Shown here: piece by piece, positions 24,521 through 64,000 of the stretch | Layout of the letters: each line of letters opens with the position of its first letter | How positions within the stretch are numbered: position 1 is the first letter of the stretch | DNA from: Rhynchopus sp. YZ270_cl-10 | Taxonomy: Eukaryota; Euglenozoa; Diplonemea; Diplonemida; Diplonemidae | Direction of reading: 5' to 3' | DNA length: 64,000 nucleotides | NCBI GenBank assembly: GCA_964035575.1 | Contig: OZ037834.1 | Span: 1,705,598 to 1,769,597 of the forward strand | The notes under the pieces: model-generated | Databases searched by the model: none | What the model was told of the DNA's origin: nothing | The model's input: only the letters and a program-made list of their open reading frames with translations | Program-made: the position numbers and the translations under genes

Positions 24521-26535
24521 CGCGTTCTTTGTATGTACCTACGGCTTGTGACTCACCGGTGGCTACAAAGCTATCAAGGCTGCACAGAGGAGGAGAGGCC
24601 TGGTGGCGGGATGGTTCACAACCGCCCCCTCTCGTATTTGACCCATTTTCCCCCTTCTTCAACCCCATCCCCCGAAAAACCCTCTCCGAAAACATGAGGG
24701 GAGATGCCCCGCCAACGCACCGGCCGGAAAGCTCGGAATGGGTTTTTGCCACTGTACACTGTATACACTGAACTGTGCATATGTCCGGGATGTGTATATG
24801 TCCGAAAACATGTGTATATGTCCGAGCCTCGGCCAACACGGACATATGCACAGGACATATACACGGGGGGGGGTAGGTATAATTTTTTTCACCACTCATA
24901 ATTTTTTTTTACTGCATAATTTTTTTTTGCGTGCGTGCGTACTTTTTTTTGAGAAGTGGTCTGACGCTTACCAAGAAAAAAAATTACCGTGCCCTAATCA
25001 AAAAATTTTTGTACCGCGAAAAAACCTCGAAAAAACCGGGTGTGAGGGTGTGGATTTAGCGCGCGCCCTGGCCCCAGGTCCCCAAAAAAATTATTTTTTC
25101 TCTTTTTTTGGAAGATCGGGTACGAAATCTTTCAATTCCGGGGTCGGACGATTTTTTTTATGCATCTGTTGATGTCTATTATTTTTTGGGCAGTTCTTAG
25201 GCGGAAGGTACCTACTAGGAAGTGCCTTATGGTGACCCTTTTACAGAGGAATTCCTCTATATTTTAAGGCCACGCTTTCGTCAAAAAATAAATTGCCCAA
25301 GCACGCGTTTGAAAGATGCATTGCAATATCTTGCAATTCCGGGGTCGTACGACCAACGGGTAGACGCAGAAGGCGACCAGGGTACTACCGTATACCAGCG
25401 GCGAACACCCCATTTTCCAAGGTAATTTACCCTGCTATTTATAGCTATAGTGCAAAATTACCCATGGTAAAAAAAGTAGACAACTTCTACTCCACTAATC
25501 TTCTCGATTTTTTTTAATGAAAAGCGCCGAGCTCGGAAATTCACACTAGCGGGGTTTTGGGGGGTTTTTGTGACTGCGAAATTGTTGAGATCACTGGGAG
25601 AGCCGGACCCCAAAGCTCTCCCACACATCCTCGGATGGTATTTTTTTTTTATTTTTTTTTGAAAAAAATATTCTCAGATCCGGGGAGTCAAAATGAATCA
25701 AATGCGGGGTCGCACGATAAAAAATTTGCATCTGGGTTCTCTGAGTGACTTTTTTGCAAAAGTATACGGATTTTCATGGAATGGCTGATATAGAAGTCCT
25801 TTTTTCAACTCTCCCCCTTTTCATAACATAAGCTCCGTATATGAGTTGCAGCACTCATTCCCCCCTCCCTTTTTTTTTCCTTTCACGCGGAGTGTCAGTG
25901 CCTGCGTCCCAGAGGCGTTTTGCACTATCAACTTCACTTTCTTTTGATGATGTGCACGAGAGGGCACATGCATCTTTCAATTTTTCTCCTTTTTTTTTTC
26001 TCTTCCCTCCCCCTATTTACAGACGGTGCCTTCTACTCATTCTCACCGTTTTAGGGCTTTTGCATTTCATTTGTTTAATTTCCTATATTGTTCGATAAAC
26101 AATAAAAGGCTTAGGGTCATCTCACTGCCCGCACTAAACCTCTGACCAGTCATTTTTTTTTTTTTTTCATTTACCCTCTTTTTTTTCTGAGTTTTGTTAA
26201 ATCTGATAAGGGTAGTGTAACTTTTTCGGTCTGTTACCGTTATTTTGGTGTTAGAAAAATCCGGCGGGCGGCGGAGAAAAAAAAGTTATGAAGAAAAAAA
26301 AGTTTTACCAGGGGGAAAAAAGTTATGAAGAGATTTTCTTACATTTTTCCAGAGTTTTCTTCACAGCAAAATCCTTATTTTCGTGACGTGTATCTTGTTT
26401 TCTGTTACGTGTAGCATTTTGTGTCTTCTCATTATCATGTTGCCTGGGTACCTAGGTTCCTGGACACCGGGTGCCTGGTTCCCAGAATGTCTGGGTACCA
26501 GAAAGTTAGAGGTACTACAGTGTGCACAGTGCACA

Positions 26536-27284
26536 GTGTACTGTGTACTGTGTACTGTGTACTGTGTACTGTGTACTGTGTACTGTGTACTGTGTACTGT
26601 GTACTGTGTACTGTGTACTGTGTACTGTGTACTGTGTACTGTGTACTGTGTACTGTGTACTGTGTACTGTGTACTGTGTACTGTGTACTGTGTACTGTGT
26701 ACTGTGTACTGTGTACTGTGTACTGTGTACTGTGTACTGTGTACTGTGTACTGTGTACTGTGTACTGTGTACTGTGTACTGTGTACTGTGTACTGTGTAC
26801 TGTGTACTGTGTACTGTGTACTGTGTACTGTGTACTGTGTACTGTGTACTGTGTACTGTGTACTGTGTACTGTGTACTGTGTACTGTGTACTGTGTACTG
26901 TGTACTGTGTACTGTGTACTGTGTACTGTGTACTGTGTACTGTGTACTGTGTACTGTGTACTGTGTACTGTGTACTGTGTACTGTGTACTGTGTACTGTG
27001 TACTGTGTACTGTGTACTGTGTACTGTGTACTGTGTACTGTGTACTGTGTACTGTGTACTGTGTACTGTGTACTGTGTACTGTGTACTGTGTACTGTGTA
27101 CTGTGTACTGTGTACTGTGTACTGTGTACTGTGTACTGTGTACTGTGTACTGTGTACTGTGTACTGTGTACTGTGTACTGTGTACTGTGTACTGTGTACT
27201 GTGTACTGTGTACTGTGTACTGTGTACTGTGTACTGTGTACTGTGTACTGTGTACTGTGTACTGTGTACTGTGTACTGTGTACA
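26536..27284. repeat. 7-bp satellite array (GTGTACT)n, about 107 copies
   Basis: About 750 bases of GTGTACT with essentially no sequence variation by eye. All six frames stay open because 21 bases encode a seven-residue repeat without stops, so the long open frames here are artefacts of the array. Confidence 0.97.
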
Positions 27285-27973: not shown

Positions 27974-28619
27974 ACTGTGTACTGTGTACTGTGTACTGTG
28001 TACTGTGTACTGTGTACTGTGTACTGTGTACTGTGTACTGTGTACTGTGTACTGTGTACTGTGTACTGTGTACTGTGTACTGTGTACTGTGTACTGTGTA
28101 CTGTGTACTGTGTACTGTGTACTGTGTACTGTGTACTGTGTACTGTGTACTGTGTACTGTGTACTGTGTACTGTGTACTGTGTACTGTGTACTGTGTACT
28201 GTGTACTGTGTACTGTGTACTGTGTACTGTGTACTGTGTACTGTGTACTGTGTACTGTGTACTGTGTACTGTGTACTGTGTACTGTGTACTGTGTACTGT
28301 GTACTGTGTACTGTGTACTGTGTACTGTGTACTGTGTACTGTGTACTGTGTACTGTGTACTGTGTACTGTGTACTGTGTACTGTGTACTGTGTACTGTGT
28401 ACTGTGTACTGTGTACTGTGTACTGTGTACTGTGTACTGTGTACTGTGTACTGTGTACTGTGTACTGTGTACTGTGTACTGTGTACTGTGTACTGTGTAC
28501 TGTGTACTGTGTACTGTGTACTGTGTACTGTGTACTGTGTACTGTGTACTGTGTACTGTGTACTGTGTACTGTGTACTGTGTACTGTGTACTGTGTACTG
28601 TGTACTGTGTACTGTGTAC
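27974..28619. repeat. 7-bp satellite array (GTGTACT)n, about 92 copies
   Basis: Same unit and same orientation as the array at 26536 and equally uniform. The two arrays are separated by about 690 bases of G-rich and repeat-family sequence. Confidence 0.97.
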
Positions 28620-30438: not shown

Positions 30439-30872
30439 AACGACCTGTCAGCGACCTGTCAATATCGGGGGGGGGGAGGGTCATTTTTTGATAGTACTTT
30501 GCCATTTTTTCAGGTACACAGGTACACAGGTACACAGGTACACAGGTACACAGGTACACAGGTACACAGGTACACAGGTACACAGGTACACAGGTACACA
30601 GGTACACAGGTACACAGGTACACAGGTACACAGGTACACAGGTACACAGGTACACAGGTACACAGGTACACAGGTACACAGGTACACAGGTACACAGGTA
30701 CACAGGTACACAGGTACACAGGTACACAGGTACACAGGTACACAGGTACACAGGTACACAGGTACACAGGTACACATGTGCACAGGTACACAGGCCACCA
30801 AAAAATCGCGAAGGGCCGTTAAAAAATGACCCCCCCCTATGGCAACGACCTGTCAGCGACCTGTCAATATCG
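30439..30872. mobile_element. Array-bearing inverted-repeat insertion flanked by 31-bp direct repeats
   Basis: A 31-base sequence beginning CAACGACCTGTCAGCG occurs exactly at 30439-30469 and 30842-30872. Between them lie an inverted pair (GGGTCATTTTTTGA near 30478 and its near complement near 30822) and the 8-bp array. A related uninterrupted sequence (CAACGACCTGTCAATATCG followed by CCCCTCCCGGAGC) occurs near 45662-45697. Confidence 0.65.
30511..30794. repeat. 8-bp satellite array (GGTACACA)n, about 35 copies
   Basis: Uniform array of GGTACACA, with one variant region (GTACACATGTGCACAG) near the right end. The same unit on the other strand forms the short array at 33863. Confidence 0.97.
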
Positions 30873-39500: not shown

Positions 39501-39898
39501 CCAAAAAAAAAATTTTTTTTTTTTTTGGGCCGAAAAAAAAAATTTTTTTTTTGGCCAAAAAAATTTTTTTGGCCGAAAATCGCCTTGTATAGCCACTACA
39601 GTACACATGGTTTTACCAAAATAGCCGTATTTTGGCTGAAAATTTGACTTGAAAATTTTTTTCATTGTTTGGTCAATCTGAGGTTTTCTTTGAATTTTTT
39701 GGGCCATTTTATGACCTACTACACCCAATTTTTGGGGGATTTTTTTTTTCTTGGTCAAAAAATAGCGCTTGTTGCCTACTACTGGGTATAGGCTTGTTCA
39801 GAGGTGTGTATTTGGTGTACCCAGACATGGTCAAAACACATGAATTTTGCGTTTTTTTGCATTTTTAGGTTCTCGACCAACCAGGGGGCGACCAATTT

Positions 39899-40156
39899 GG
39901 GTACTGGGTACTGGGTACTGGGTACTGGGTACTGGGTACTGGGTACTGGGTACTGGGTACTGGGTACTGGGTACTGGGTACTGGGTACTGGGTACTGGGT
40001 ACTGGGTACTGGGTACTGGGTACTGGGTACTGGGTACTGGGTACTGGGTACTGGGTACTGGGTACTGGGTACTGGGTACTGGGTACTGGGTACTGGGTAC
40101 TGGGTACTGGGTACTGGGTACTGGGTACTGGGTACTGGGTACTGGGTACTGGGTAC
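39899..40156. repeat. 8-bp array (GGGTACTG)n, about 32 copies
   Basis: Uniform array. It is bounded on the left by a stretch that starts after an acceptor-like tract (GCATTTTTAG, ending 39868) and on the right by about 50 bases ending in a consensus donor AAG/GTATGT at 40209. The array could therefore lie in an exon-like context, but no homology supports a protein. Confidence 0.95.
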
Positions 40157-43445: not shown

Positions 43446-44038
43446 GTTTGATACCTGCACAGCGGGCATTCCTCTGAGTCCAACGCATGTTTGGCCTGTC
43501 TGCGGCGTTGTACTTCAGGTGCACGAAGACAGGGTCTGGTGGTAAATTTTGCGTAGTGTCGCATTCCCTCATGTGTGGGTCACTCACACTTGGCGGTCAT
43601 GTGCCACTGCGTGGGTCTGGGAATTTGGGTACCTGGGTACAGGAAATTTGTTGTGGAAGACATCAACCACCATGCATTGAGGAGGGTAAGACAGTGTTCG
43701 CAGTTTCTACCTGATAGCATTACAACATTTAACTTCTCCACGGGGGTCTTGGGCCGTTCACTCGGTTCTACCTTGACTACCGGAAGATATTCTTGAGGCC
43801 TTTCTGGTCTCTAGAATATCCGGTCTTCCCGAACGGAGGCACACTTTGTGTGTTACTACGACCTGGCAATTTCCAGCAGTAGGTTAAGTAATCTTTCTTG
43901 TAAATTGTTGGATCATTATCTCCTCAGTGCATGAATGCCCCACGTGACTGGACACTTTTGTGTTTGTCATGTGGAGCTGTGGTTGCTCTTTCACGACTTT
44001 TTTCCTGTTCCTGGGTACCTGTTCCTGGACCTGGACCT
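43446..44038. repeat. Dispersed repeat copy B, ends at an 8-bp array
   Basis: Shares about 440 bases with 33424-33862 in the same orientation. Copy B has about 150 extra bases near its start (43490-43640) that can be read as CTKTGSGGKFCVV; this faintly recalls a tyrosine-recombinase strand motif but is not enough to assign it. It runs into the array at 44039. Confidence 0.8.
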
Positions 44039-44418
44039 GGGTACCTGGGTACCTGGGTACCTGGGTACCTGGGTACCTGGGTACCTGGGTACCTGGGTAC
44101 CTGGGTACCTGGGTACCTGGGTACCTGGGTACCTGGGTACCTGGGTACCTGGGTACCTGGGTACCTGGGTACCTGGGTACCTGGGTACCTGGGTACCTGG
44201 GTACCTGGGTACCTGGGTACCTGGGTACCTGGGTACCTGGGTACCTGGGTACCTGGGTACCTGGGTACCTGGGTACCTGGGTACCTGGGTACCTGGGTAC
44301 CTGGGTACCTGGGTACCTGGGTACCTGGGTACCTGGGTACCTGGGTACCTGGGTACCTGGGTACCTGGGTACCTGGGTACCTGGGCACCTGGGTACCTGG
44401 GCACCTGGGCACCTGGGT
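44039..44418. repeat. 8-bp array (GTACCTGG)n, about 47 copies
   Basis: Uniform array of GTACCTGG with degenerate units at both ends (GACCTGG at left, GCACCTGG at right). It is followed directly by the GTCCGAC palindrome cluster. Confidence 0.97.
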
Positions 44419-46839: not shown

Positions 46840-49800
46840 ATGCATCTCTTTGCAATAACCTTGTTGTTATATTTCAGCGATTCTGATGCAACAGCAGTGG
46901 TGGTGGGGTCTGATATTATTCGGAGTGAGTACAACCTAGAAGAATATGCAGAAGAAAGGGACAGTGAACACATGCACTTCTGGGACGGCAGATGCAACCC
47001 TTTGAAGTACCGTGACTGGGATTACCTCTCTACGGGGGTCTCCTCCTTGCAAGACGTCGCTTGGGATCGCGATGAAGGGTTCGAACTGACACAACGGGAC
47101 AGAAGTATTGCGTCACCACATCTCCGCATGCGTTCTCTCGCTATGGATGAATATGGGGCATCGTGGATTAAATATACGAACGGCCCTTCAACCGATGTGT
47201 GGGTCACCATAAAGGAAAAACTCTCAGAGCTGCATCTGTCCGACTCAGACCAAGGGAGTTTATACTCAAAGCCGTGGTATGAGTTCAGCACCTTTGAGCA
47301 TTGGTCGTTCTATAAGAGGGATTTTCCGGAGGTGTCGTTCCCTATTGCGAGGAATGTACGGAGAGCGGCGGATCTATCGTCAGATGGACGGCATTTGATT
47401 TTTACGCATGAAGTGGCAGTAGGGGAGGAGGATGAGTATGACGCATGGAAGTTCAAGACACCAGCGTTGCAGCGGACCTTTACGCTGATTGACATTCAAA
47501 AAAAGCTGAAAATTGCGTTAGAATCTCCGTGCATCGGCGCAGACACAGAGAACACCAAATACTACATATTATCGCCTGCTGTCGTTGGGGATTGGGTTTT
47601 GCTTGAAAAATGGGATGCTGACGCAAAGGTGCTGAACATCTTACTCTATAATATCGACCGTGGTACACGAAAGGTGGTGACGCATTATGCTGGGTTGAAC
47701 CACGTTATTTTCCAGGCAAATCTTTGGAACGCAACGAATGGGGTAGTGACGGGCACAGCCCCGCATGCCTTTTTTCTTTTTTTGGATGTAGAATTTGCAG
47801 GGGAAACACCGCTGTCGCTAGCTTCTTATGGGGAAGCGGTGTACGGCATTCACCTTGACTGGACGAATGTCAGGCAGGTCTCCATTGTGTACACAGAGCT
47901 GCCTTCGGGGCTTCGGTGCTTTATCCCTGCAGAGGAGTTGGTGCAGATCCTTCATGCTGTGACGTATTCGTATAACGGTGAGTCAGTGGTGCAGTCTGCG
48001 ACCTCGAGGAATTTCTCTAGGGTTCTCTCCTCTGTTGGTGCAGGAAATTGGATTTTTTCGATTCTGCATTCTCCAGAAGACCCGCCATTATATACTGTCG
48101 CTGCAACCCAGATTTACTCTGAGGATTGGACAGAAGGGGAACGGCGGGGTTGTCTTGAGTCACCAGAAACGCACGTTGTCGACTCTGTCACCACTGCAGA
48201 CACCGTCACCTTTGTGTCCAGCTTTCACACCGGGGTGGTGATCTCTGTTGGAAAGAACAATACACGGTATCTCATTGGGGAATATACAGACCGAAATGAG
48301 GGGGAAGGGTTTTCTGTATGCCGGCTGTTTGACCCTGCAGAGGAGGGAGAGGTGGGGGAGGCAGTGGTCTTTCATGATGTGGTGCTGTACCAGAGAGAGG
48401 ACAACGGGAGCGTTCGGTTGATGATGGCGGATTTGAACAAGGACAACGATGCGGCGTGGGATATTGTCGATAGGTTTCCTTTGCGCAACCAGTTTGTGAA
48501 TGATACTGACAATGATGGGATAGGTGACGCAGGGGACCTCGTTGAGGTGCATGGACGCTGTACGGACCACCTCCGAACGGACCCCTCAGAGTGTGTCAAC
48601 GACCTGGTGATTCTCTACTCAGCATGGGGTGCGTTCGTTGTTGTCATGGTGTCCGTCTGTCTTGCCGTAGGGTGCTACCGCAAGAAACACCTAGACGATC
48701 TCTACCTAAAGCGGCAGGCTACTGCGCGTGAATGGATAGATCGGCAGTGGCGTGAGTCTGCACGTCACGACATCCCCGAGCAAGAGCTCTTCACGTTAAT
48801 GGCAGAAATAGATGAAAGGATTCAAAGGCAGGAAGGGTTCCGGGTATGTAAAAGGGGGATGTGGGGGGGGAGTGTTTGGAAAAAAGAGTTGGGAAGGAAT
48901 GAACACAGACCGGGGGCAGCTATGCAATTTATCTGGACAAAATTGTTGTAAATAATATTATCTCAAAAAGAAAAACCCATTTCCTTTTGCAGGGAGAATT
49001 GGTCATGCAGTCACTGCTGTTCTTGCTGACGATCATCTCGGTTGGGTTGTGGATTGTGTCGATGTGGCGTTCAAATCCGTCCCTCAAGGTGTGTACTCTG
49101 GTTTTTTTCTTTCTGAAGCCTTGTATTACTGGGGATCCTCAGTAACACTCCTGAGGTCACACCCTTTTCTCCTTTGCCCATCATATGCCACACATTTCGT
49201 CAGTTGCTCAAATAACCACTACATGTTATTGGCTTTAGCAAACCAACACCAAAACCTACAACAGTTTGAACGCACCCTTGCGTGGATAGACTTCTTCACG
49301 TCCACTGTGTTTCTCATGGATTTGGTGTACCGCTGGTTCTTCCGTATTGAAGGCGAGTATAAATCCTTCAAGGACTACTGCATCAAGAACTGGTACGACT
49401 TCCCAAGCCTCATCTCCGACATCCCGGGACTTACCGGGGCCGGCACACTGAGCATCCTTGTTGTCGCCCGATTGATCCGTGTTTTGCGCATCTTTAAGGT
49501 ACGGCCCCTATTGAATCTAACCACACACCATTTCTTCTTGCACAGATGTTCCGTGTCGTCCGCCTATACCACAGGGTGACGCAGCAGCAGGCGATTCTTG
49601 CACTCATTCTCCGTTACGACACCATGTGGCAGACGGTGTTTGTGTGCGGGTTGATTCTGTCGCTGGGTGTGGTGATCAAGCTTATTGAGCAGAATGAGCA
49701 GGCCGTGTTTGACCCGTATGAGAACGTGTTGTGGTTCTGTGTCGTGACAGTGACCACCATAGGGTATGGGGATATGGTGCCGGAGAACCCTGTTTCACGG

Positions 49801-51762
49801 ATCATCGCCGTCTTCCTTATGGTGTCCGGGATTGGCATCATTGGAGTGCTGACGGCGTCGATGGGCGAGAGTGTGCGCGACTCCGGCATCGACAAGAGCA
49901 TGCTGAATGATAAGGTGCGTCGTGTGCAGCAAGGCAAATGGCGGCTTTCCCTAGAAGTCCTGCGGTACTCCGTGCTCTACAACCCGATACTAGCGCTGTT
50001 CAAGCCGTACGAAAGGGGGACCTGCTCGCATCCGCACTGCCTTCGCTCGTCGCGTGTGATCACTGCGGAGGACAGCGTTGTGACGGTGACGTATCAGAAC
50101 TCGAGGTACCATGCGTCGTGCTTTCGATGTGCCGACTGTGGGAAGACCCGCACTGAAGCGGACGGTGCGTGCTGGGTGGTGCCTGAATACGCGAAGGCGA
50201 ACCAATCTGTGAAGCGCCGTCGCCGCACTGCCTCTGTCCTGGGTGCGGCGTACAAAGACACGGGGAGTGCAACCACGGCGTCTGTGTTCCTCCACAAGCG
50301 CTGCCTCCGGCGTGCACGTGGCGGTGATCACGCCGAGGTCCAGCCCAGCCCCTGCAGCGATAAGTCTGCCATGCGCACCGAAGACGACGCCGCCTCGACC
50401 GTGGACTCCATCATATCCCAAGCAAGCACCCGCGAGTCTGAAGGAGCGATGCTCATCGAGGAGCTCTCCGTGCAGGGCCTCTTCGGCGTAGCTGAGCGCT
50501 ACAACGGTTCCTACACACGGCGGATGGCGGGGAATGAGTTCAGCCCGGTGCTCTTTGACCACGATGTGTCGGGGCTTGCCATTATCACCTACGACGATGG
50601 GCAATGGCAGCTTTTGTTCCGTCTTTCAGACCAGATTGAGACGTGCGCTGCGTCGTCGAAGTTTTTGGTTGGGGTGTGGGCGACGCCGACGGAACTTTCA
50701 AAACTGTACGGGACACCTGTTGTGGAGGACGTTGGCTCGCAGCTGCACTACTGGCACGTTGTGTACGACCCGCTGGACATGCCCGTACGCAACCTTGTCA
50801 TCAACTATGCCTCACACCGCACACGGCAACAGTTCTCCAACCTCCTCGAGAGCCTCACCGAGGAGGGCAACGCCTCCCAAGGTGTCTCCATGGGGATGGG
50901 CAAGTTTGGTGCTGCTGTCGACATGCCGCGCCGCTCCACCACCGCAGAGCATATACAGTGCATGGAGCGGCTGCGCTACCAGATCAAGGTCGTCACCGAG
51001 CTCGACGAAAAACGAACAAAACTCCGCACACCGTGCGAGCCCGGCGAGAAGCTGACCCTCCTCCTCCGCACCCACAAGCTCCGAGAGAGCGGCAAGGTGA
51101 CCAGCTTCGACCTCATGCGCGACCACCTTGAGTACCTCATCTTCAAGAAGAACGCCACCCGGCCGTGCGGCACGTCCCTCGAAAAGGTCTTCGCCATCCA
51201 AGCCATGCAAGAAGCCTCCCACGCAGGCAACCGATACCGCACCGACGACCAAGGCCTGGCGGCAGAGATGCGGCCATGGGACGAGAACGACCTGGACTGG
51301 ACGGACACCGTGGAGTGGACCATGCATGAGGTGGAGCGCTGTCTCTGCGACCACGGTGTGGACCGGCTGCCACAGTACAACAGTGTACGCATCGAGCTCG
51401 AGAACCTGGTACTGAGTTACGACAGGGTGTTGATGTGCCAGTGGGCGTGGCAGCATTTATCTTGGAAAAACTGGCAAGAAGGTGCGGTACGTCCCCTCAA
51501 GCTGCGTGTACAGCTCACCGACATGCCCGTCCCCCCAGGTGGCCGCACCCAATACGCTCAATACGAGACCTCCCTCCTCGACCCCCTCGCAGACAACCTC
51601 GAACGCCATCAGCTCGAGACCGGCAAGGAGCTCGCCGCCTCCTCCCTCCTCCACGCAAGCAGCACCAACTCTGCGAACATCCGCCGTGCAAGCTCGATGG
51701 AAAGCGTGATGACAACTGGAATGGACCAGAAATGCACCCCCATGGGAAGAACAAGTTTTTAG
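46840..51762 (+). CDS. Voltage-gated K+ channel fused to a large propeller-like ectodomain and a LIM-like finger
   Basis: I join exons 46840-48843, 48993-49088, 49265-49498 and 49546-51762, all phase 0 with GTATGT, GTGTGT and GTACGG donors and CAG acceptors, giving about 1,516 aa. Order: signal peptide (MHLFAITLLLYF); strand-rich ectodomain to about 585 ending in a TSP3/EF-like calcium motif (DTDNDGIGDAGD, about 555-566); one membrane helix (about 587-612); charged helical linker; S1 (exon 2); S2 and S3 (exon 3); S4 with Arg every third residue (ARLIRVLRIFK, then MFRVVRLYHR) split by intron 3; S5; selectivity filter TTIGYGD near residue 850; S6; a zinc-finger half HASCFRCADC as in LIM domains preceded by CSHPHC; and a long C-terminal region without known domain. 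A K+-selective, voltage-dependent plasma-membrane channel with an extracellular sensor is the likely role. Exon 1 alone has a stop soon after the donor if unspliced. Confidence 0.85.
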
Positions 51763-54139: not shown

Positions 54140-57100
54140 ATGTCCGAGCTTTTTAAAGCCATGGTGCGACTGAGCAATGGGACTGATGCGAGTGGCTTTA
54201 CCGCGAAGAGTGACGGTGTGACCTCCGTTTTGAACAGGGTATGGCAAAAAAAAAAATTGCACCACAACGGGGTTTTCAGTAAAAAGCCGCGGTAAAACTT
54301 ACTAAAGAGGGGGGTTTTTATTTTAAGGTGACTAAGCACGAGAGGCTTAGGATCATCTTGTAAACTTTTCTTTTATTTTGATGGTGTTGCGTCGTTTTTC
54401 TAGACTCCTGGGTGTCGTTAACGCTGCATCTTAATACAAACTGTTCTATCAAAAGGGGTTTCCTTTAGACACATCTTCACTCTTTTTCGTTTATTTCACA
54501 ACGCCACCCTGCCCCGTACCCACAGAACCAGCTCCTCACCTACGGTGGTGTGGTGACCGACAAGGTGTGGGGCCTGAATCTAACCACACTGAAGTGGGTG
54601 CAATACCAATGCACGGGGTGGATCCCGCTGGCAAGAACCTTTCATTCCGCTGCAGTCTATGGCCAGCATATGGTATGCAGCTCACTTTCCGTTCTGTGGT
54701 GAGCGTTTTTGTTTTTTCGGATGGGGGAATGACTGTGTGCCTGCTTACAGTTTCCCTGTAGGCAACTTCCAAACACAACACTCCGGGGCTCGATATCCCG
54801 TTTAAAAGACAGCGGTGCTTACACAGCTTGGCAACTACACTATTTCAACAATTCTTCTAAAACATAATACAACTCCTCACACAGCTTGTCTACGGCGGGG
54901 TGTTGGAAGGTCTTGCCACCGAACCCGACTCCTCACCTTACTACGAACTGGACCTGGAGACGTACGACTGGATGCGTGTACAGACCTCTGGGGAGGCACC
55001 GGGGGTGCGTGCGTATCACACTGCGGTTGTGCATGGGGGGCGGATGATTGTCTTTGGTGGGCAGGATTTGTCACATGGTCCGGACCATGCGGTCACTGCC
55101 GCCGATGTGCAGCAGGCGAAGGCGGGGGGCTTCTTTGACCTCTTCGTCTTGGATATTGCGTCGCGCACGTGGTCGCGTATAGCCGTTGCACAGGAGGCAC
55201 CCATGCTGTGGGGGCACAGTGCAGTGCTCTTCAACAACTACATGCTTGTCTACGGCGGCTTCGATGTCACACCCGAGGAGGCCAGCAGCGGGGTCGTCAC
55301 CTCTGCACCCGACGCGCCACCGAGCTGCTCCCTCAACGAGAAGGTCTACATCCTTGACCTCACGACGAATGAGTGGAAGATCTCTACCCCGTCCCCCCAC
55401 GCACCACACCCAGTACCACGTGGTCTCCATGTTGCAGAGGTGGTGGGGGCAGAGCTGCTCATCTTCGGTGGCATGACCTTCGACGACGCAGGGCGTGCCA
55501 TCAACGTCAACGACGCGTGGGTCTGGGACATCGCGATTGGCCGCTGGTCGCAGGTGGAGTTCTGCATTCCCTACTGGCCGAGCAAGCAGCTTCTCAGTGC
55601 GGTGCACGAAGGTCGCCTCATGGTGTGCAGCGACCTCACTGCGGTTCACGTTCTCGACTTCAACGACCGCCGCAAAGGATGGGTTAAGTACGCCACCGAC
55701 CCTAGCCTTATGTTTGAAGACCGTCCTCAGCCACCACTACAGATCCCTGCCAATCCCATCCTACCCCCTCCAGCAGCGACACCACCGGTTGAGACACCGG
55801 CAGTAGTAAACACATCGCCGATGGTGTCGCCGGCAAGGGTGGAGGCAACCCCGGCGCGGTACTCTCCTGAACCAGCAACGTTGACACCACCGTTGCATCC
55901 ACAGCCACAACCACAGCCACAGCCTCCACAGGGTTATTATGAAACGCAACCACAAAGACCTGTCAGACACATTGCGTCTCCTACCGTTCCTATGGTCGCA
56001 CCATTGCCGCCGGCGCCTGCATTAGCAAGAGCGCCGCCTCCACCGGGGCCTAGTCCAAGAGCACAGCAAGCGCAGGAGGAGGCAATGGAAAGACAGCGTA
56101 TGCTACTGGAGGATGCGCGCAAGGCAAGGCAGGAGGAGGCGGTGCGGAAGCTGCAGAGGGAGATGAACACCTTGCAGGGTGAGTTGGGCGACCTGGCCGC
56201 GTTGAAGGAGAAGCTAGGTACGTCGACGCTGGCGCACAATGCGAACATCGGAGGCCCCTCTGTGTCGCCGCATCGTACGCACAACGTTGCATATCCTCCA
56301 GTCCCCTTGGGGGATGATCCCAGAGGGGCCAACCACTCCCTCCAGGTCAACGCCTTGACGAGCTATCTCGATAAGCTGCAAACACACCAAAAGTCTGTCA
56401 TGCAGGAGCAAAAGAAGCGCCACAACGATTACCTCGGGGATCTGAACGACACGCATGCGGAGCATGTTAAGATGCTGAAACAGCGTGCAGACAGCCAGAT
56501 CACCGCGCAGCAGCAGATTGAAGCCATTTCGCAGACAGTCGACGTTGAGGAAAAGCTTCGCGAACAGATGGAAGCGATCCAGAAGACATACGCCTCCATG
56601 ATGGAACTGCAACGCGAGCCCGAAAAGCTTCCATCACGCACACAAACACTCTACCCCGACGGTGCGGTGCCCATGGTGGAGATGCTCGGACGCCTCTCAA
56701 AGATCAACCGCCAACCTATCGTCGAGCCTCAACGCGGCTGGGGTCCTCAAGCAAACTCTGCACCCCCTCCACCCGGCTACGCATCACGCGCCCCCTCCGC
56801 TTCAGTACCTTACAGCACCGTCCCCGCATCACCCATGGCTATCCCCCAGGTCTACCCACCTGCCCCAGCACCCACCCTACATACCTACCAGACCGCCCCA
56901 CTAACAAGCCTTCCCGCAAAGCCTCCAGGCAACCCCATGCTGGCAATGCTTGGCAAGACCGCAACTGGAGGCGCGTTTCCGGTGCCACAGACAGTTCCAT
57001 CGACCCCGGTTGGTCAAATGGGGGCAGGTGGACCGATAGGGTACGGACCTGGAGGGGTACCACCTGGGGGGCATGCGGATTTGATCAACCAAAAGGCAAG

Positions 57101-57377
57101 CCATCTGCAGGATATGCGTGGCTCCCTCCAATCCATGCGGGACACAGTAAAGTCACCGAACACCTGGGAGGATGCGAAGCTCAGCCCCGCACGCTACTCC
57201 CGCGCCTCCTCCAGTCCAGGGGCATACTGGGAGAAGCTCAAAGGCATCATGGGTGACGACTACGTCGCAATAGAAGGCGACGGTGTCGGCAACATGGGCA
57301 ACCTCCTCTCCCCTTCCCACTCAGGGTCGCCACTCCCAAGGGGCGACACCTCCCTAGAGGCTGGGTATCGAATGTGA
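54140..57377 (+). CDS. Kelch-repeat protein with Pro-rich and coiled-coil C-terminus, three exons
   Basis: Exons 54140-54238, 54526-54672 and 54885-57377 join at phase 0 (GTATGG and GTATGC donors, CACAG acceptors), giving about 912 aa. Residues about 25-350 form about five kelch units with GG doublets (LLTYGG, LVYGG, IVFGG, LVYGG, LIFGG) and spaced Tyr/Trp pairs, predicted to form a beta-propeller. The joins rebuild two kelch units exactly across exon boundaries (VLNR/NQLLTYGG and YGQHM/LVYGG). A Pro-rich linker follows, then two coiled-coil segments (QEEAMERQRMLLEDARK and the THAEHVKMLKQRADSQ region), then a Pro/Gly-rich tail. Likely a cytoskeletal scaffold or trafficking protein; the exact role is unknown. 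Intron 1 carries a GTGACTAAGCACGAGAGGCT motif. Confidence 0.85.
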
Positions 57378-57613: not shown

Positions 57614-60600
57614 ATGGCTGGGGCAATCGCCCTCGTCGTGCTTGCGGTTGTCGGTGATCTGCCTATATACTCAGACTTGACACCGCCGGCGCCGTATGTT
57701 AGTGTGAACAGCACATGGAACACTTCGAATTTTGCGTCGAATTTGCAGAGGCCGTTCCCGACCGGGCAGTGGTGGACGGCGTTCGCAGACCCAACGGGCA
57801 CTGTAGACCCTGTGATCAACGCACTGCCCCTGCTTGTTAAGAGGATTGAGTGTGGGTTCGCCTTGGCACCCCCGACACTGACGTTTTCTAATGTGAATCG
57901 TGCTGCGTCGCACAGCTTCACCGACGACGTGACAGTGCGGGTGAGTACAAGCGCAACCGGGTGTGCGTCGTCGATCACCGGATGGGATTCATACTCAGTG
58001 ACGATGCTGCAGAGCGTGCCGCAGGGGTTGAGTGCGGGTGACGGGATTGAGTCGATCTTCGCGCGTGGGTCACCCTTCGCGTCGTTCAGGGCTGTGGGAG
58101 GTACGTTTGCGGAGATCACCTTCAAGGACCGCATCCGGCAGGTCTCGAATGTGCAGATCAACGGTGCAGTGCCCGTCACGGCAAGCATGCTTAACATCAC
58201 CACAGAGGAAGGCGACGCGTGGCTCGTGTTGCTCCCACAAAAGACGCAGCTCACGATCACACGCACCAGTGTTGTCTACACAGAAGCAATGGACGGCTGG
58301 GTGCGTATCGCATACATCCCCACCACAGGAGGCTCGATCGCTGCCGCGTCCGAGTACCTCGTTGAGCACGGCAGCTGTGTCGCCCAAGGTGGTTCGCCCA
58401 ACACAGACATACGCGGCACAACACTGACAGTGGAACACAAATGGAACGGGGCAGGCAACACCTGCAACCCGCTGATGCTCACTGCGCCCCACCACAGGAC
58501 ATTCTGGAAAGACACGTGGTCGACTGCGTGGCTCAGCAGCCCGCTGCAGTACGAGACGCTGATGGGGGTGCTCATGCCTGCGCCCGCACGCTTCACGTCG
58601 TTCACGCTTGCGCATGACGTTGTGGCCGGGTTTGACGACCTTACCACACGGGCGACAAACCTGCAGCTGTGCGAGGAGTACTTCCTTCACAACAAGGTGC
58701 TTGTGGACGATGCGTACCTCCTGGGCACCGTCCAGACAGACTCGAAGAACGCAACCGGAGAGGACGAATCCCTTCGGGTCAAGAGTCAGGAGCTCTACGG
58801 GCTGGCGAAGACGTACCGTGTGGCACGCCGTCTGAGTGCAGTGAAGATGGGACAACGTCTGCAGACGCGGATGTTTGAGGTGCTGTCAGGCATGACTTCG
58901 CTTGCTGCATACGACTCGACGTGGGGTGGCATGGTCATCTCGCCCCCAGACAGGCCCCTCTCCGAGAGCATCACCGACCAGTACGAGAACAACACAAAGA
59001 TCTTCGGACGCATCCTCTATGGGTACGCAGAGCTCTACGGCACCCCGCCTGGGAGCGTCAAGCCTGCACCGACACCGCCAGCCTCTATCTCCGTCTTCAT
59101 CACGGCGCTGCTGCGCACGGTCATGTTCTCCGGCACCTCCGATTGGTACCCACAGCTGCGCAACTACGACTTCTACACGGCGCTGTCCTTCTCAGGTGGG
59201 CTTGTGGCCGACACCGAGGAGGGGAGGGTGTTGTCGGCCCCGTCAGATGCGCTGATTCAGTGGCAGGCTGCACGCGATGTGTCGACGCTGCTGGGCATTG
59301 CGAACGCGACACAGCTGGCAACGATTCTGTTCACAATGGAGGCTGCCTCTGTGGGGGAGTACTGGCTGGCGCTCAACAGCAAGGTGGGAACGTCTTCTGT
59401 TGCAGTGGCGACGTACGGAACGATGAGCCTGTCGTCGCAGGACCAGCTCACAACACTGTCGCCTGTGGGCGAGCATCTGACGTCCCTGCGGACGGAGATT
59501 GCTTTGGTGGGGCGTACCACACAGATCATGACGAACCTGCTGCAGACGGTGCCGTCGACACTGCAGGACACAGCACGCCCCCTCGAGACGAACACATACG
59601 ACCTCACGCTCCTCGGCATCATCAACGGCACGCACACGCTGCAGCTCCTCGAGAACGGCGTCAGCGTGAACTACACAGTCATGGAGCCGCTCTTCTCCAT
59701 TGTTGAGTACGCCGTGCTCTCCGCCGACCCCTTCGCACTCATCCCCTGCAGCGAGATGTTCAGCACCTGGAACGGCTCACTCCCACTGACAGTGGTCGGA
59801 CGCCAGCTGTGGTACAAAGACTCCTTCAACTACCAAGTGCGCTCCATCGACTACGTCCCCGGAGTGATCTACCGTGAGCCCACCCAGACCAACATCTACG
59901 GTTCTGTGTACGAGCGGATCTTCAAGCGTGACTTCCCGCGTATCAAAGACGCAGGGTTCAACACCCTGAAGGTGCGGTGGTTTTCGAGCAAATCTGTGTT
60001 GGGGATGACGGAGTTTGTGAACCTTGCGGCGGAGTTCGACTTGAACATTATTTTCACGTTTTCGGCGAGTGAGGATGAGGTGCTGAACAACAGGCATTTG
60101 ACGGAGCAGCGTTTCATCGATGCGATGGATGCGATGGCCGACAAGTCAAACGTGATCATGTGGAACCTTGAGTCGACCTCCTTCGTGAGCATCTCTGTCG
60201 ACGGTGCCTACAACTACCTGACGCTGTTCCGCCAGCTGCTGCGTATCCGTAACAAGTACGACTACTACCTGCGCCGCCCTCTGGCCCTCTCGCTTCTGCC
60301 CTTCTACGCCGATGCCTTGGCCGTGGGTGGACTCAACCCTGTCGACATTTACACCGACGGAGTTGAGATTGTCATCATGACGGTGTACGAACTGAACCTG
60401 ACCTCCACACGAGAGCTGCTCGCAAAGGTCGCCCACCCCATCCACATCAACCTGCAGTCGGACTCGTACCACGGGATCAACGAGACGCAGGATGCTGTGT
60501 ACCGTTCAGAGTTGCTGTTCAACCAGACGCAGATGGTGTTGGCATTGCACCACGAACACGAGGTGTGTGGTGTTGGTGTCATTGAGTGGGTGGACGAGTG

Positions 60601-63600
60601 GTGGCGTGGTGAGGACTCTGACTCTGACAACGACTGTTCGGACCCATCTCCCGGGCGTCACAGCCACTGTGCGACGCGCGTGATCGACTTCCACGACGGA
60701 GAGATCAACCTTGAGCACCAAGGTCTGCACTTCCAAGAGGACAAGTGGCTGCTGCACTGCATCTCCCCGAAGCCGTCCTACAACGCTGTGTCGCGTGCGC
60801 TGACCGGCACTTCTGTGGACCACGGCGAGTCGTGCCTCTTCATCCCCCTCGACAACTTCTGGGCCTGGTTCGTCATGATCGCGTCTGCAGCCTTCTTCAT
60901 TGCAGGTATCGTCCTCTGCACCTCCATGCGTGTCCTTGCCTCCCGCAAGAAGCGCCGTGCCGAGAACAAAGGTGCCCAGTCGGGCACCCGCTGGCTCCAA
61001 CCAGACATCTCAAAGATCTCGCGTATCATCGTGAAGCGTACCTGCACCCTCCCGCACACACAGACACCCTTCCAACGCATTGCCATCCAAACCGAGTCGG
61101 GTCTCTCCTCCAAGGACCCAGCCCCGCTCTCGGGGGAGTGGGAAGGCGAGGTGCTGTGGTCCGAGCTGGACCAGGTGCGCGAGCTTGGGGTGTTCCTCCA
61201 GTTTTCGGCCCTGCCAAACAATATTGGGTACACGATCCAAGGACAGGATGTTGGGAACAAATACAAGATCACTGGACAGACACGGTCGCTTGATGTTGCG
61301 CAGACCTCTGGGATGCCGCGTACGAAGGAAGACGGGTCGAAGCTGCTTGTTGAGCGCTACTTGGTTGAGTTTGTTGCGAAGAACATGATCCCGGACCAGG
61401 ACGGTGGGGTGGACGAGGACCTTGAGTTTGTTGGTGTGTGGGAGAAGTGGGAGTCGCTCCCGAACGAGGACGGCGCCACACGCATCTCTGAGGTCATTGC
61501 TGGCGGTGCTGCTGCAGCCCCTACCATCCCACGCGGCATTCAGACTGGGTGCAGAGTCATCGACCACGGCGAACCCTTCGTCGAGTTTGCCGGATCCTTC
61601 AAACTCAGCCCACAGCCCGAGATCGACCCCTGGTGTTACAACAGATGGCAGTGTGTACGTCTCCAGCTGGAACGCCTGCAGATGCTTATCTACGACGAGA
61701 TGCTCTGCCAAGGCCGCTGGGGGACAGAGGCCAAGTACCAAGAGACCGACGCTGCCTTTGACTACGCAGTGAGCACCCTGCACTACCGTTACATGCATTC
61801 TTTCTACGGATGGTGCCACGCGCAGGGGCAGGTCGGCGGGATCCTCGACATCCCAGACGAGGCGCAAGAGAAGCGGACCGACGAGCAGCTGACGGAGCTG
61901 CTTGCGCTCTTCACGCTGTGGCAGCTGGGTGAGCAGATGACGCTGTTTGCGGGACACTGGCTGAGTTGGAACTTCCACTACTTCATGAAGTTCAAGAAGT
62001 TCCCACCGACACACGTGATCAACGATGGGCGGCACTTCATGGAGACCAACCTCACATTTGACGACCTGAACGAATCATGTGCGTTGATGCCGTACTACGA
62101 TGTGCCGCATCAGTGTAACGAGTACTGCCAGGAAGTGTGCTCGATTGCGCTTGAGGAGAAGGGCCAGCGTGCGATGCCGAAGCTGCTCCTTCCCGACGGC
62201 AACGTCGACAAGAACGAGACCATGCGCTACCCCTTCTTCAAGACGTTCCGTGAGCCGCGCAAGTGGGGTGTCGTGTTCTACATGCTGCACGATGGGTTCT
62301 TCATCCTGCACACAACGATCCTCATGTTCTTCTTCTGGGCACTTGTCGTACACTTCTCCGACGACAACGGCAGCCACGCCCTTGGCGAGGTCATGGAGCG
62401 CTCCTACAACGTGTGGAGTGGACAGCCGGACTCAATGCGCTTCATCTTCCTGGTGCTGTGCAAGATCGACTTCTGGATGGTCATCATCCACGAGTCGCTT
62501 GATCTGTGGATCCTTTCTGGTATCACACAAAGCCCTGCGCTTGGTGTCCTGGGGACACGTGTGTGCAGCATGTTCGGTCTGATGGTGTGCTACTGCCGGT
62601 GCTGCTGCAAGCGGCAGAGGGGCGCGACAGACATCCGTGAGATCTCATGCCAAACGTTCTGGACGGACACGACGTGTCGCCGTATCCGACTGCGTCCGTT
62701 CTTCCAGCTGCGGTGGTCGTCGTACGTTGCGCTGGTGTCGTTTGCCATCTTCTTGGGTGAGTCGCTCTTTGAGAACGACGCAACCGTGTCGAGCATCCGC
62801 ATCACAGGGCACCTTCTCGTCCGCATCGGCTTCCTGCTGATCTTCAACGCCGTCATCACACTGTGGCCGCACAGACTGCACGGTTCCCCTGTACCGGCCG
62901 ATGGGACGTCGCGCATCAACCACACTGCGTTGGTCATTTCGTTCTTCTTCTGGCTTCTCATTTACTCAGGCGCGTCGGTGTTCATGGCATGGACGATGTA
63001 CCGCACGGAGAATACAGGGTTTTCGTTCTGTGACTGTGATGGGTTGCAGTCGGACATTGAGGACCACGGTGCGACTGAGTTTGGACGGGACTTACTGAGC
63101 AAGGTGTACTCTTGCGTGCGTGACCAGCCACGTTGCTTTACGGCAGTGTTTTTCATCTGGCTGTCGACGTGCGTGATGTTTGCGATCTCTGTCCACGGGG
63201 TGTTCCTGCTGGGTGTCGTCTTCCTTGGCGGTGTGAAGCACCTTCTCATGCAGTGGCAGAACAAGAAGTCGCGCAACCTGCGCTCCCACAAGATGGAGAC
63301 GAAGTTCATCCTCTCCGCAATCAACGTCAAGCTGCTGTCCTTCTCAGACCCGCGAGACAACAAGCTTGCTATGCGCGTCTGGAACAGAGTCATCGAGGTC
63401 ATGCACGAAGAGGACCTGCTCACATCATACGAAAGCGAGACCCTGCAGATCCACCCGCATATCGTCGACATCCAGTTCACACTCGAAAACGCCTTTGCAA
63501 AGGAACGCATGTCAGGCTTCCTTGAGTACCTTCAGAGCTCTACTGAGTTTGACGAGACGTTAGGCCCCGTGCAGTGCTACCCATCTGTGTCGGTGATCGT

Positions 63601-64000
63601 GCCTGTGTACGGTGAGAACGTCCTTGCCGACAAACGTGCCCTTCGTCTCAAGGCGCGTGGCGACCACCAGCAGCAGTCGCAGCTGCACTTCCTCGTTGAG
63701 TGCTACGAAGACGAATGGAACAACTTCATCGAGCGCTGTGTCAATGAACAGCGTCTCTTCCGTGGCGCGCTGCTTGAGGACCAGATTGTTGCCCTGCTGC
63801 AGGACAAACAGACCCTGCAGGAGGAGTTCGACTACATCAAGAAGCGTGCCCTCAAGCCTGACCAGCGTCTGCGTGAGGTCTGCGGGAAGCGTGTTCTCGA
63901 GCTCTTCCACACGCGCCCGAAGCTCTTCAGCGACGAGGAGTTCGACGCTGTGTGGTGGTGGGCGTCGATGCGCATGCAGACTGTGGGCCGCACCATCCGT
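57614..64000 (+). CDS. 1,3-beta-glucan synthase (GT48) with N-terminal GH81-like and TIM-barrel GH-like domains, partial at right edge
   Basis: One frame runs from ATG 57614 to the window end (2,129 codons, no stop seen). A signal peptide (MAGAIALVVLAVVGD) leads into a GH81-like region, about 25-620: FPTGQWWTAF, TAPHHRTFW, YDSTWGG, WYPQLRNYDFY and SFSGGL match conserved GH81 blocks. The catalytic acids appear changed: the place of NDHHFHYG reads ENNTKIFG, and the ESSSE block reads SAPSD. A second glycosidase-like barrel follows, about 730-1000 (FPRIKDAGFNTLKV, WNLES, IEWVDEWW). A membrane helix lies near 1083-1105. The cytosolic and polytopic remainder matches FKS1/callose synthase: multiple helices from about 1555, YPSVSVIVPVYGE and WWWASMRMQTVGRTIR. 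It makes 1,3-beta-glucan from UDP-glucose at the plasma membrane. The C-terminal catalytic part lies beyond the window. Confidence 0.88.
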   Translation, partial: MAGAIALVVLAVVGDLPIYSDLTPPAPYVSVNSTWNTSNFASNLQRPFPTGQWWTAFADPTGTVDPVINALPLLVKRIECGFALAPPTLTFSNVNRAASHSFTDDVTVRVSTSATGCASSITGWDSYSVTMLQSVPQGLSAGDGIESIFARGSPFASFRAVGGTFAEITFKDRIRQVSNVQINGAVPVTASMLNITTEEGDAWLVLLPQKTQLTITRTSVVYTEAMDGWVRIAYIPTTGGSIAAASEYLVEHGSCVAQGGSPNTDIRGTTLTVEHKWNGAGNTCNPLMLTAPHHRTFWKDTWSTAWLSSPLQYETLMGVLMPAPARFTSFTLAHDVVAGFDDLTTRATNLQLCEEYFLHNKVLVDDAYLLGTVQTDSKNATGEDESLRVKSQELYGLAKTYRVARRLSAVKMGQRLQTRMFEVLSGMTSLAAYDSTWGGMVISPPDRPLSESITDQYENNTKIFGRILYGYAELYGTPPGSVKPAPTPPASISVFITALLRTVMFSGTSDWYPQLRNYDFYTALSFSGGLVADTEEGRVLSAPSDALIQWQAARDVSTLLGIANATQLATILFTMEAASVGEYWLALNSKVGTSSVAVATYGTMSLSSQDQLTTLSPVGEHLTSLRTEIALVGRTTQIMTNLLQTVPSTLQDTARPLETNTYDLTLLGIINGTHTLQLLENGVSVNYTVMEPLFSIVEYAVLSADPFALIPCSEMFSTWNGSLPLTVVGRQLWYKDSFNYQVRSIDYVPGVIYREPTQTNIYGSVYERIFKRDFPRIKDAGFNTLKVRWFSSKSVLGMTEFVNLAAEFDLNIIFTFSASEDEVLNNRHLTEQRFIDAMDAMADKSNVIMWNLESTSFVSISVDGAYNYLTLFRQLLRIRNKYDYYLRRPLALSLLPFYADALAVGGLNPVDIYTDGVEIVIMTVYELNLTSTRELLAKVAHPIHINLQSDSYHGINETQDAVYRSELLFNQTQMVLALHHEHEVCGVGVIEWVDEWWRGEDSDSDNDCSDPSPGRHSHCATRVIDFHDGEINLEHQGLHFQEDKWLLHCISPKPSYNAVSRALTGTSVDHGESCLFIPLDNFWAWFVMIASAAFFIAGIVLCTSMRVLASRKKRRAENKGAQSGTRWLQPDISKISRIIVKRTCTLPHTQTPFQRIAIQTESGLSSKDPAPLSGEWEGEVLWSELDQVRELGVFLQFSALPNNIGYTIQGQDVGNKYKITGQTRSLDVAQTSGMPRTKEDGSKLLVERYLVEFVAKNMIPDQDGGVDEDLEFVGVWEKWESLPNEDGATRISEVIAGGAAAAPTIPRGIQTGCRVIDHGEPFVEFAGSFKLSPQPEIDPWCYNRWQCVRLQLERLQMLIYDEMLCQGRWGTEAKYQETDAAFDYAVSTLHYRYMHSFYGWCHAQGQVGGILDIPDEAQEKRTDEQLTELLALFTLWQLGEQMTLFAGHWLSWNFHYFMKFKKFPPTHVINDGRHFMETNLTFDDLNESCALMPYYDVPHQCNEYCQEVCSIALEEKGQRAMPKLLLPDGNVDKNETMRYPFFKTFREPRKWGVVFYMLHDGFFILHTTILMFFFWALVVHFSDDNGSHALGEVMERSYNVWSGQPDSMRFIFLVLCKIDFWMVIIHESLDLWILSGITQSPALGVLGTRVCSMFGLMVCYCRCCCKRQRGATDIREISCQTFWTDTTCRRIRLRPFFQLRWSSYVALVSFAIFLGESLFENDATVSSIRITGHLLVRIGFLLIFNAVITLWPHRLHGSPVPADGTSRINHTALVISFFFWLLIYSGASVFMAWTMYRTENTGFSFCDCDGLQSDIEDHGATEFGRDLLSKVYSCVRDQPRCFTAVFFIWLSTCVMFAISVHGVFLLGVVFLGGVKHLLMQWQNKKSRNLRSHKMETKFILSAINVKLLSFSDPRDNKLAMRVWNRVIEVMHEEDLLTSYESETLQIHPHIVDIQFTLENAFAKERMSGFLEYLQSSTEFDETLGPVQCYPSVSVIVPVYGENVLADKRALRLKARGDHQQQSQLHFLVECYEDEWNNFIERCVNEQRLFRGALLEDQIVALLQDKQTLQEEFDYIKKRALKPDQRLREVCGKRVLELFHTRPKLFSDEEFDAVWWWASMRMQTVGRTIR

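Follow-up and report, generated by a model that had tools for sequence, protein, structure and literature searches.

Separate proteins tune some voltage-gated potassium (Kv) channels from the extracellular side. Parts of PMC9409431 and PMC4350108 describe DPP6 and DPP10 as separate type II membrane proteins with an eight-bladed propeller and an alpha/beta hydrolase domain. In these accounts the propeller is extracellular, a single helix lies against S1/S2 of Kv4, and the two proteins speed gating-charge movement and aid surface delivery. DPP6 is also given trafficking and adhesion roles (PMC9409431), and what exactly the extracellular domain of DPP10 does is called largely unknown (PMC4350108). 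Here we describe a gene at positions 46840 to 51762 (+ strand) of a 64,000-nucleotide stretch, hereafter the window, from contig OZ037834.1 of the diplonemid Rhynchopus sp. YZ270_cl-10, which is predicted to carry a propeller-like ectodomain in the same chain as a Kv channel, so that the stoichiometry is fixed at 1:1 and the role of the ectodomain can be tested. BK (Slo1) channels have a short N-terminus outside the cell, an additional helix (S0) before S1 and RCK domains, and we know of no KvAP/KCNQ-type channel with such an ectodomain, an S0 or a LIM-like finger.

Domain order and homologues

The predicted product of the gene consists of an N-terminal ectodomain, S0, a channel core (S1-S6) with a TTIGYGD filter and a LIM-like finger, and the same order is present in two full-length homologues. 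We propose, with a probability of roughly 0.5, that it is a diplonemid Kv channel whose single chain includes a part that animals supply as a separate subunit, and that its voltage-driven opening is adjusted by a propeller of its own, mounted on a stalk that calcium stiffens.

Homologues were searched for with the window protein in a set of 5.8 billion proteins, in which 7,991 candidates were scored and 337 matched at E <= 0.01. Among the best 120 of these 337, which were examined, five proteins stood apart: P0001 from Diplonema papillatum (1486 residues, 44% identity over 95% of the window protein), P0002, an open reading frame (ORF) from a Trinity transcriptome (1480 residues, 41% identity over 97%), and the partial homologues P0003 (985 residues), P0004 (1031 residues) and P0005 (853 residues). 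The remaining 115 were either KCNQ2 or products without a name that carry the same Pfam domains, matching at 1.0e-6 to 2.1e-6 over 10-19% of the query. A three-sequence profile search (7,719 candidates) returned two proteins, P0001 and a new one, P0121 (882 residues), and missed P0002, although that sequence is part of the profile; since the candidate stage drops true members, the lack of more relatives is weak evidence. P0121 carries the ectodomain, an acidic segment, S0 and the S0-S1 linker and then runs into an apparent unspliced intron. The full ectodomain is therefore represented in four of the seven sequences (the window protein, P0001, P0002 and P0121), with P0003 retaining the ectodomain end only and P0004 and P0005 lacking it, as either truncated models or real shorter forms.

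The spliced gene model (46840-48843 + 48993-49088 + 49265-49498 + 49546-51762, + strand) forms one open frame of 1516 residues, with the following features.

46840..46890, + strand: likely signal peptide, about residues 1-17 (core LFAITLLLYF, hydropathy 2.51 over 10 residues)
46972..48417, + strand: propeller-like ectodomain, residues 45-526, from a conserved MHFWD
48430..48537, + strand: thrombospondin type 3 (TSP3)-like acidic segment, residues 531-566 (21 residues invariant in five aligned sequences; not confidently modelled)
48598..48675, + strand: additional membrane helix S0, spanning about residues 587-612 (hydropathy of 2.31 across residues 589-607, with a corresponding peak in P0001-P0004 and P0121)
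48676..48843, + strand: S0-S1 linker, residues 613-668, probably cytoplasmic, at the end of exon 1 (26-41 of 56 residues identical in five homologues; P0005 does not cover it)
48844..48992, + strand: intron 1, phase 0, GT-AG, 149 bases (gene model P0121 apparently reads through the same intron)
48993..49088, + strand: exon 2, encoding S1
49089..49264, + strand: intron 2, phase 0, GT-AG, 176 bases (homologue spacing supports the acceptor)
49265..49498, + strand: exon 3, encoding S2 (F716, D719), S3 (D745) and the first part of S4
49499..49545, + strand: intron 3, phase 0, GT-AG, 47 bases, within the stretch coding for S4
49546..51762, + strand: exon 4, encoding the end of S4, S5, the pore, S6, a probably cytoplasmic C-terminus and the stop (Ion_trans_2, 1.5e-16)
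49753..49773, + strand: selectivity filter TTIGYGD, residues 848-854 (T848, T849, G851, Y852, G853 and D854 invariant in six aligned sequences)
50023..50319, + strand: LIM-like zinc finger, residues 938-1036 (C938 C943 H967 C970 / C973 C976 ... H1028 C1031 invariant in six aligned sequences)
50458..51759, + strand: conserved C-terminal region, residues 1083-1516 (kept in P0001-P0005 except for a variable tail; no Pfam match)

The four exons and three phase-0 introns of the original prediction were correct: the sites are GT-AG, and P0001 and the transcriptome-derived P0002 each cross all three exon junctions. Retention of intron 1 or 2 introduces in-frame stops, and retention of intron 3 gives no stop and shifts the frame. 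The P0121 gene model, as we read it, enters its apparently unspliced intron at 'EGFR', the end of exon 1 in the window gene, and the position of intron 1 is probably common to both genes. Canonical GT-AG introns as reported in part of the D. papillatum genome paper (PMC10161547) agree with those of the window gene.

In the original prediction, no described channel class with this domain order was known. No description of such a channel was found in the portions of the open-licence literature that were searched, and one may exist elsewhere; the sequence kind itself is not new, as P0001, which shares the domain order of the window protein from end to end, is already deposited under the bare name 'putative potassium channel protein 2', an annotation for which that literature yielded no study. 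The words 'channel' and 'potassium' are absent from the main text of the D. papillatum genome paper (PMC10161547). The order is present in full in P0001 and P0002, and the architecture is not unique to the window. A scan of GTDB genome contigs for a bacterial source of the ectodomain gave 22 pattern matches and no relatives, a weak negative that covered two peptide patterns, and tblastn of the TSP3-like part (57 residues) against plasmids gave no match.

The host genome contains at least 154 Ion_trans matches, many of them closely spaced on long frames; the window channel, with a core split by introns, is not among the matches listed. These matches are often clustered on frames of 1000-3000 residues, which look like many four-domain channels, inferred to be of the Na+/Ca2+ type.

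Channel core and LIM-like finger

Pfam matched the window protein to Ion_trans_2 (2.3e-16) and Ion_trans (3.5e-14). Helices were placed by 19-residue hydropathy with a threshold of 1.5, which gave peaks for S1 (672-690), S5 (807-825) and S6 (864-882) and overlapping windows over S4, and S2 and S3, which are below the threshold in the window protein, were placed by alignment. In the core alignment of six sequences (the window protein and P0001-P0005), S4 has six invariant charges at every third residue (R769, R772, R775, K778, R781 and R784), and F716 and D719 in S2 and D745 in S3 are likewise invariant. The core is predicted to have voltage-sensor and K+-filter machinery, and with its S4 basic residues, acidic S2/S3 partners, T-x-G-Y-G filter and pore domain the protein has the sequence hallmarks of the Kv superfamily, in line with the full S1-S6 Kv-type core originally claimed.

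A profile of P0003 with P0001, P0002, P0004 and P0005, from which the window protein was excluded, matched 207 PDB sequences at E <= 0.001. Among the best 60 of these 207, the top row was Lmo2059 (1.3e-14 over 62 positions), others were 1orq, which we take to be KvAP (3.5e-14), KCNQ2 (from 1.2e-12) and Kv1.2 (1.8e-10), and these 60 included KvAP, KCNQ, Kv1, Kv2, Kv4, TOK and KcsA. KvAP/KCNQ-type Kv channels rank with the best matches of the core to PDB sequences.

The eight Cys/His positions of the LIM-like finger, which had also been noticed at first reading, presumably form two zinc sites (CCHC and CC..(H/C)C), as assigned from the general consensus, and its second loop is unusually long. 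The Pfam LIM score of the window protein (22.8 bits) lies 0.1 bits under the cut-off of 22.9, P0001 and P0003 score 17.8 and 19.7, and LIM was not reported in P0002, P0004 or P0005. Within the conserved region that follows, 50458-50691 encodes an NGxYxR ... H ... W ... LxGxW pattern conserved in the window protein and P0001-P0005, which resembles a repeat of protist proteins.

Ectodomain, stalk and S0

The N-terminal hydrophobic core of the window protein is comparable to those of P0001 (2.79), P0002 (2.82) and P0121 (2.52), which makes a secretion signal plausible, though its 19-residue hydropathy stays slightly below the threshold of 1.5. The position of the likely signal peptide and ectodomain before S0 suggests that the N-terminus is outside the cell and that S1-S6 have the usual orientation. 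Five N-glycosylation sequons precede S0.

The strand-rich, propeller-like ectodomain of the original prediction was supported at modest confidence by a structure model whose Foldseek matches include the ectodomains of sortilin, DPP4 and DPP10; its size is about 540 residues (45-586) rather than 560. Identity to the window protein over residues 45-526 is 146/432 for P0001, 124/425 for P0002 and 163/461 for P0121 (29-35%). The ectodomain had no match among PDB sequences up to E 1. A DUF3228 match (E 0.0053, 16.8 bits against a cut-off of 25, in one of four members) was rejected as a chance match.

The acidic segment follows the ectodomain. The motif DTDNDGIGD at residues 555-563, from which coupling of calcium or ligand sensing to gating had been suggested, is the second half (DTDNDGIGDAGD) of a longer pair, DLNKDNDAAWDIVDRFPLRNQFVNDTDNDGIGDAGD. 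Five sequences cover this segment (the window protein, P0001, P0002, P0121 and P0003), and D531, D535, N536, D537, D541, D544, N554, D555, D557, N558, D559, D563 and D566 are invariant among them; judging from the familiar pattern, we take the invariant Asp/Asn residues to be calcium-ligand positions. The segment has the same repeated D-x-D/N-x-D-x-x-x-D pattern as thrombospondin type 3 repeats (PF02412), of which it would represent one short pair under the Pfam cut-off, and TSP_3 is the top Pfam family in all five homologous segments. In NCBIfam, three of the acidic segments match the MtsC thrombospondin-3 family weakly (12.3-17 bits against a cut-off of 350), and a 43-residue acidic segment searched alone against PDB sequences gave no match.

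Identity to the window protein over residues 527-573 is 32/47 for P0001, 28/47 for P0002, 30/47 for P0121 and 25/47 for P0003, exceeding that over residues 45-526, which indicates that the stalk is more tightly constrained than the propeller. P0004, whose model starts inside the acidic segment, has 6/24 residues identical to the window protein, and the ectodomain end of P0003 has 10/28. In thrombospondin type 3 repeats the calcium sites have a structural role, and the calcium concentration of sea water is about 10 mM; a structural clamp that stays filled is for these reasons likelier than a calcium switch. The suggested coupling of sensing to gating is the less likely reading: the motif is better described as a TSP3-like pair, and a structural stalk is the likelier role.

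The hydrophobic peak at residues 589-607 agrees with the extra helix initially placed after the acidic motif. Conservation of the linker between S0 and S1 points to contact with the channel core.

Proposed mechanism and alternatives

In the mechanism that we propose, a signal peptide would direct the N-terminus to the outside of the cell, S0 and S1-S6 would come next, and S0 would pack against the voltage sensor in the manner of the DPP6 helix at S1/S2 of Kv4. The TSP3-like segment would bind calcium as a structural clamp, rigidly joining the propeller to S0, and four propellers would crown the tetramer, where they would adjust trafficking as well as voltage dependence and might also bind a partner outside the cell. 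The opening step would be voltage-driven. The likeness to Kv4 with DPP6/DPP10 would lie in a probable extracellular propeller and one added helix next to the voltage sensor, along with the presence of the DPP10 ectodomain among the Foldseek matches.

Several observations weigh against this reading. The ectodomain model has a predicted local distance difference test (pLDDT) score of 53 with no residue at or above 90 and with values below 50 for residues 1-113 and the greater part of the TSP3-like segment, and the template modeling (TM) scores of the Foldseek matches are low. No internal repeat was seen in a profile self-comparison of the ectodomain, which gave one pair at chance level. The TSP_3 matches are below the cut-off of 25 in all five segments, the best being P0001 at 16.7 bits and the window protein, at 9.3, the weakest but one. 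The contact between S0 and the voltage sensor is presumed by analogy with DPP6, in which the topology is opposite, the ectodomain coming after the helix; in the window protein it comes before the helix, with six more helices after. DPP6/DPP10 have an alpha/beta hydrolase domain, for which no Pfam match up to E 1 was found in the window protein. In DPP6/DPP10 much of the effect is due to the helix and the N-terminus, and part of PMC9409431 reports that Kv4.2 still reached the surface with chimeras lacking the propeller and hydrolase; with the largely unknown extracellular role of DPP10, this means that the DPP precedent favours S0 more than the propeller. Finally, P0003 and P0005 are labelled complete ORFs and start late, so shorter forms of the channel may exist. 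Any likeness to DPP6/DPP10 is at most one of function, not of descent, as no test that was made indicated kinship.

The chief rival is that the ectodomain is a true sensor, in which a ligand (a prey peptide, a sugar or a surface) or a change in calcium moves the propeller, and the stalk and S0 relay the movement to the voltage sensor, making the protein a receptor-channel. The less conserved propeller, set beside a conserved stalk, S0-S1 linker and core, resembles a variable receptor on a fixed transducer, but fast propeller evolution also fits loose structural constraint. The Foldseek matches include sortilin and DPP4, whose ectodomains bind partners; however, no ligand or pocket residue was identified, and a calcium switch outside the cell is unlikely at marine calcium levels. 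We consider a sensor role possible but doubtful. Equally tentative is the broader idea of a lineage-restricted class of receptor-channels, in which the propeller would detect an external ligand or surface and shift voltage gating by way of a TSP3-like stalk made rigid by calcium, S0 and the conserved helix between S0 and S1; such a class would parallel the Kv4-DPP6/10 complex by convergence, within a single chain.

Alternatively, the ectodomain could serve adhesion, trafficking or anchoring in the glycocalyx and have no role in gating. The likely secreted N-terminus and the sequons before S0 are consistent with this, as are the trafficking and adhesion roles given for DPP6 in part of PMC9409431, but the conserved S0-S1 linker suggests close contact with the channel core, and we regard such a role as rather unlikely.

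It is very improbable that two genes, one for a propeller protein, either secreted or single-pass (exon 1), and one for a Kv channel (exons 2-4), were joined by error. The late starts of the P0003 and P0005 ORFs and the P0121 and P0004 models, which cover the first or the second part only, could be read in this way. However, P0001 and P0002 run unbroken along 95-97% of the window protein, no stop precedes the donor in exon 1, the first Met that exon 2 offers, M673, lies where S1 already begins, and P0121 ends in an apparent read-through intron, not a terminus. Two separate genes were rejected on the continuous homologues, and the single gene originally proposed was retained.

The reading as a channel of the BK (Slo) type whose N-terminus has grown, to which the signal-peptide-like N-terminus, probably outside, and the hydrophobic helix (589-607) before S1 would give the BK topology, was rejected as the least probable, because no RCK/BK Pfam family was matched in the window protein (up to E 1) or six homologues (up to 0.1; P0121 without the C-terminal part), a LIM-like finger stands where BK has RCK domains, and none of the best 60 of the 207 PDB matches of the core is named BK.

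The preferred reading, a Kv channel with a built-in propeller, bears on the open point of what the DPP10 extracellular domain does, as that point is put in part of PMC4350108. Such a channel would also offer a first way into the electrical signalling of diplonemids, a group that part of PMC10161547 places among the most abundant marine microeukaryotes.

Other features of the window

Downstream of the channel gene, 54972-57374 (+ strand) encodes a Kelch-repeat protein of 801 residues. A long frame at 57614-64000 (+ strand) is open at the window end and has weak matches to GH81 (23.4 bits) and 1,3-beta-glucan synthase (33.8 bits), both under cut-off, and may encode a fused glycosyl hydrolase and synthase. 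A fusion of the GH81/glucan synthase type occurs in Euglena. Upstream, 12388-19863 (+ strand) is a frame of 2492 residues with 11 PAS-fold stretches after a hydrophobic N-terminus. The window also contains five long arrays of 7- or 8-base repeats with 97-100% matching (26521-27283, 27974-28619, 30511-30794, 39898-40156 and 44010-44418), four of which underlie repetitive open frames.

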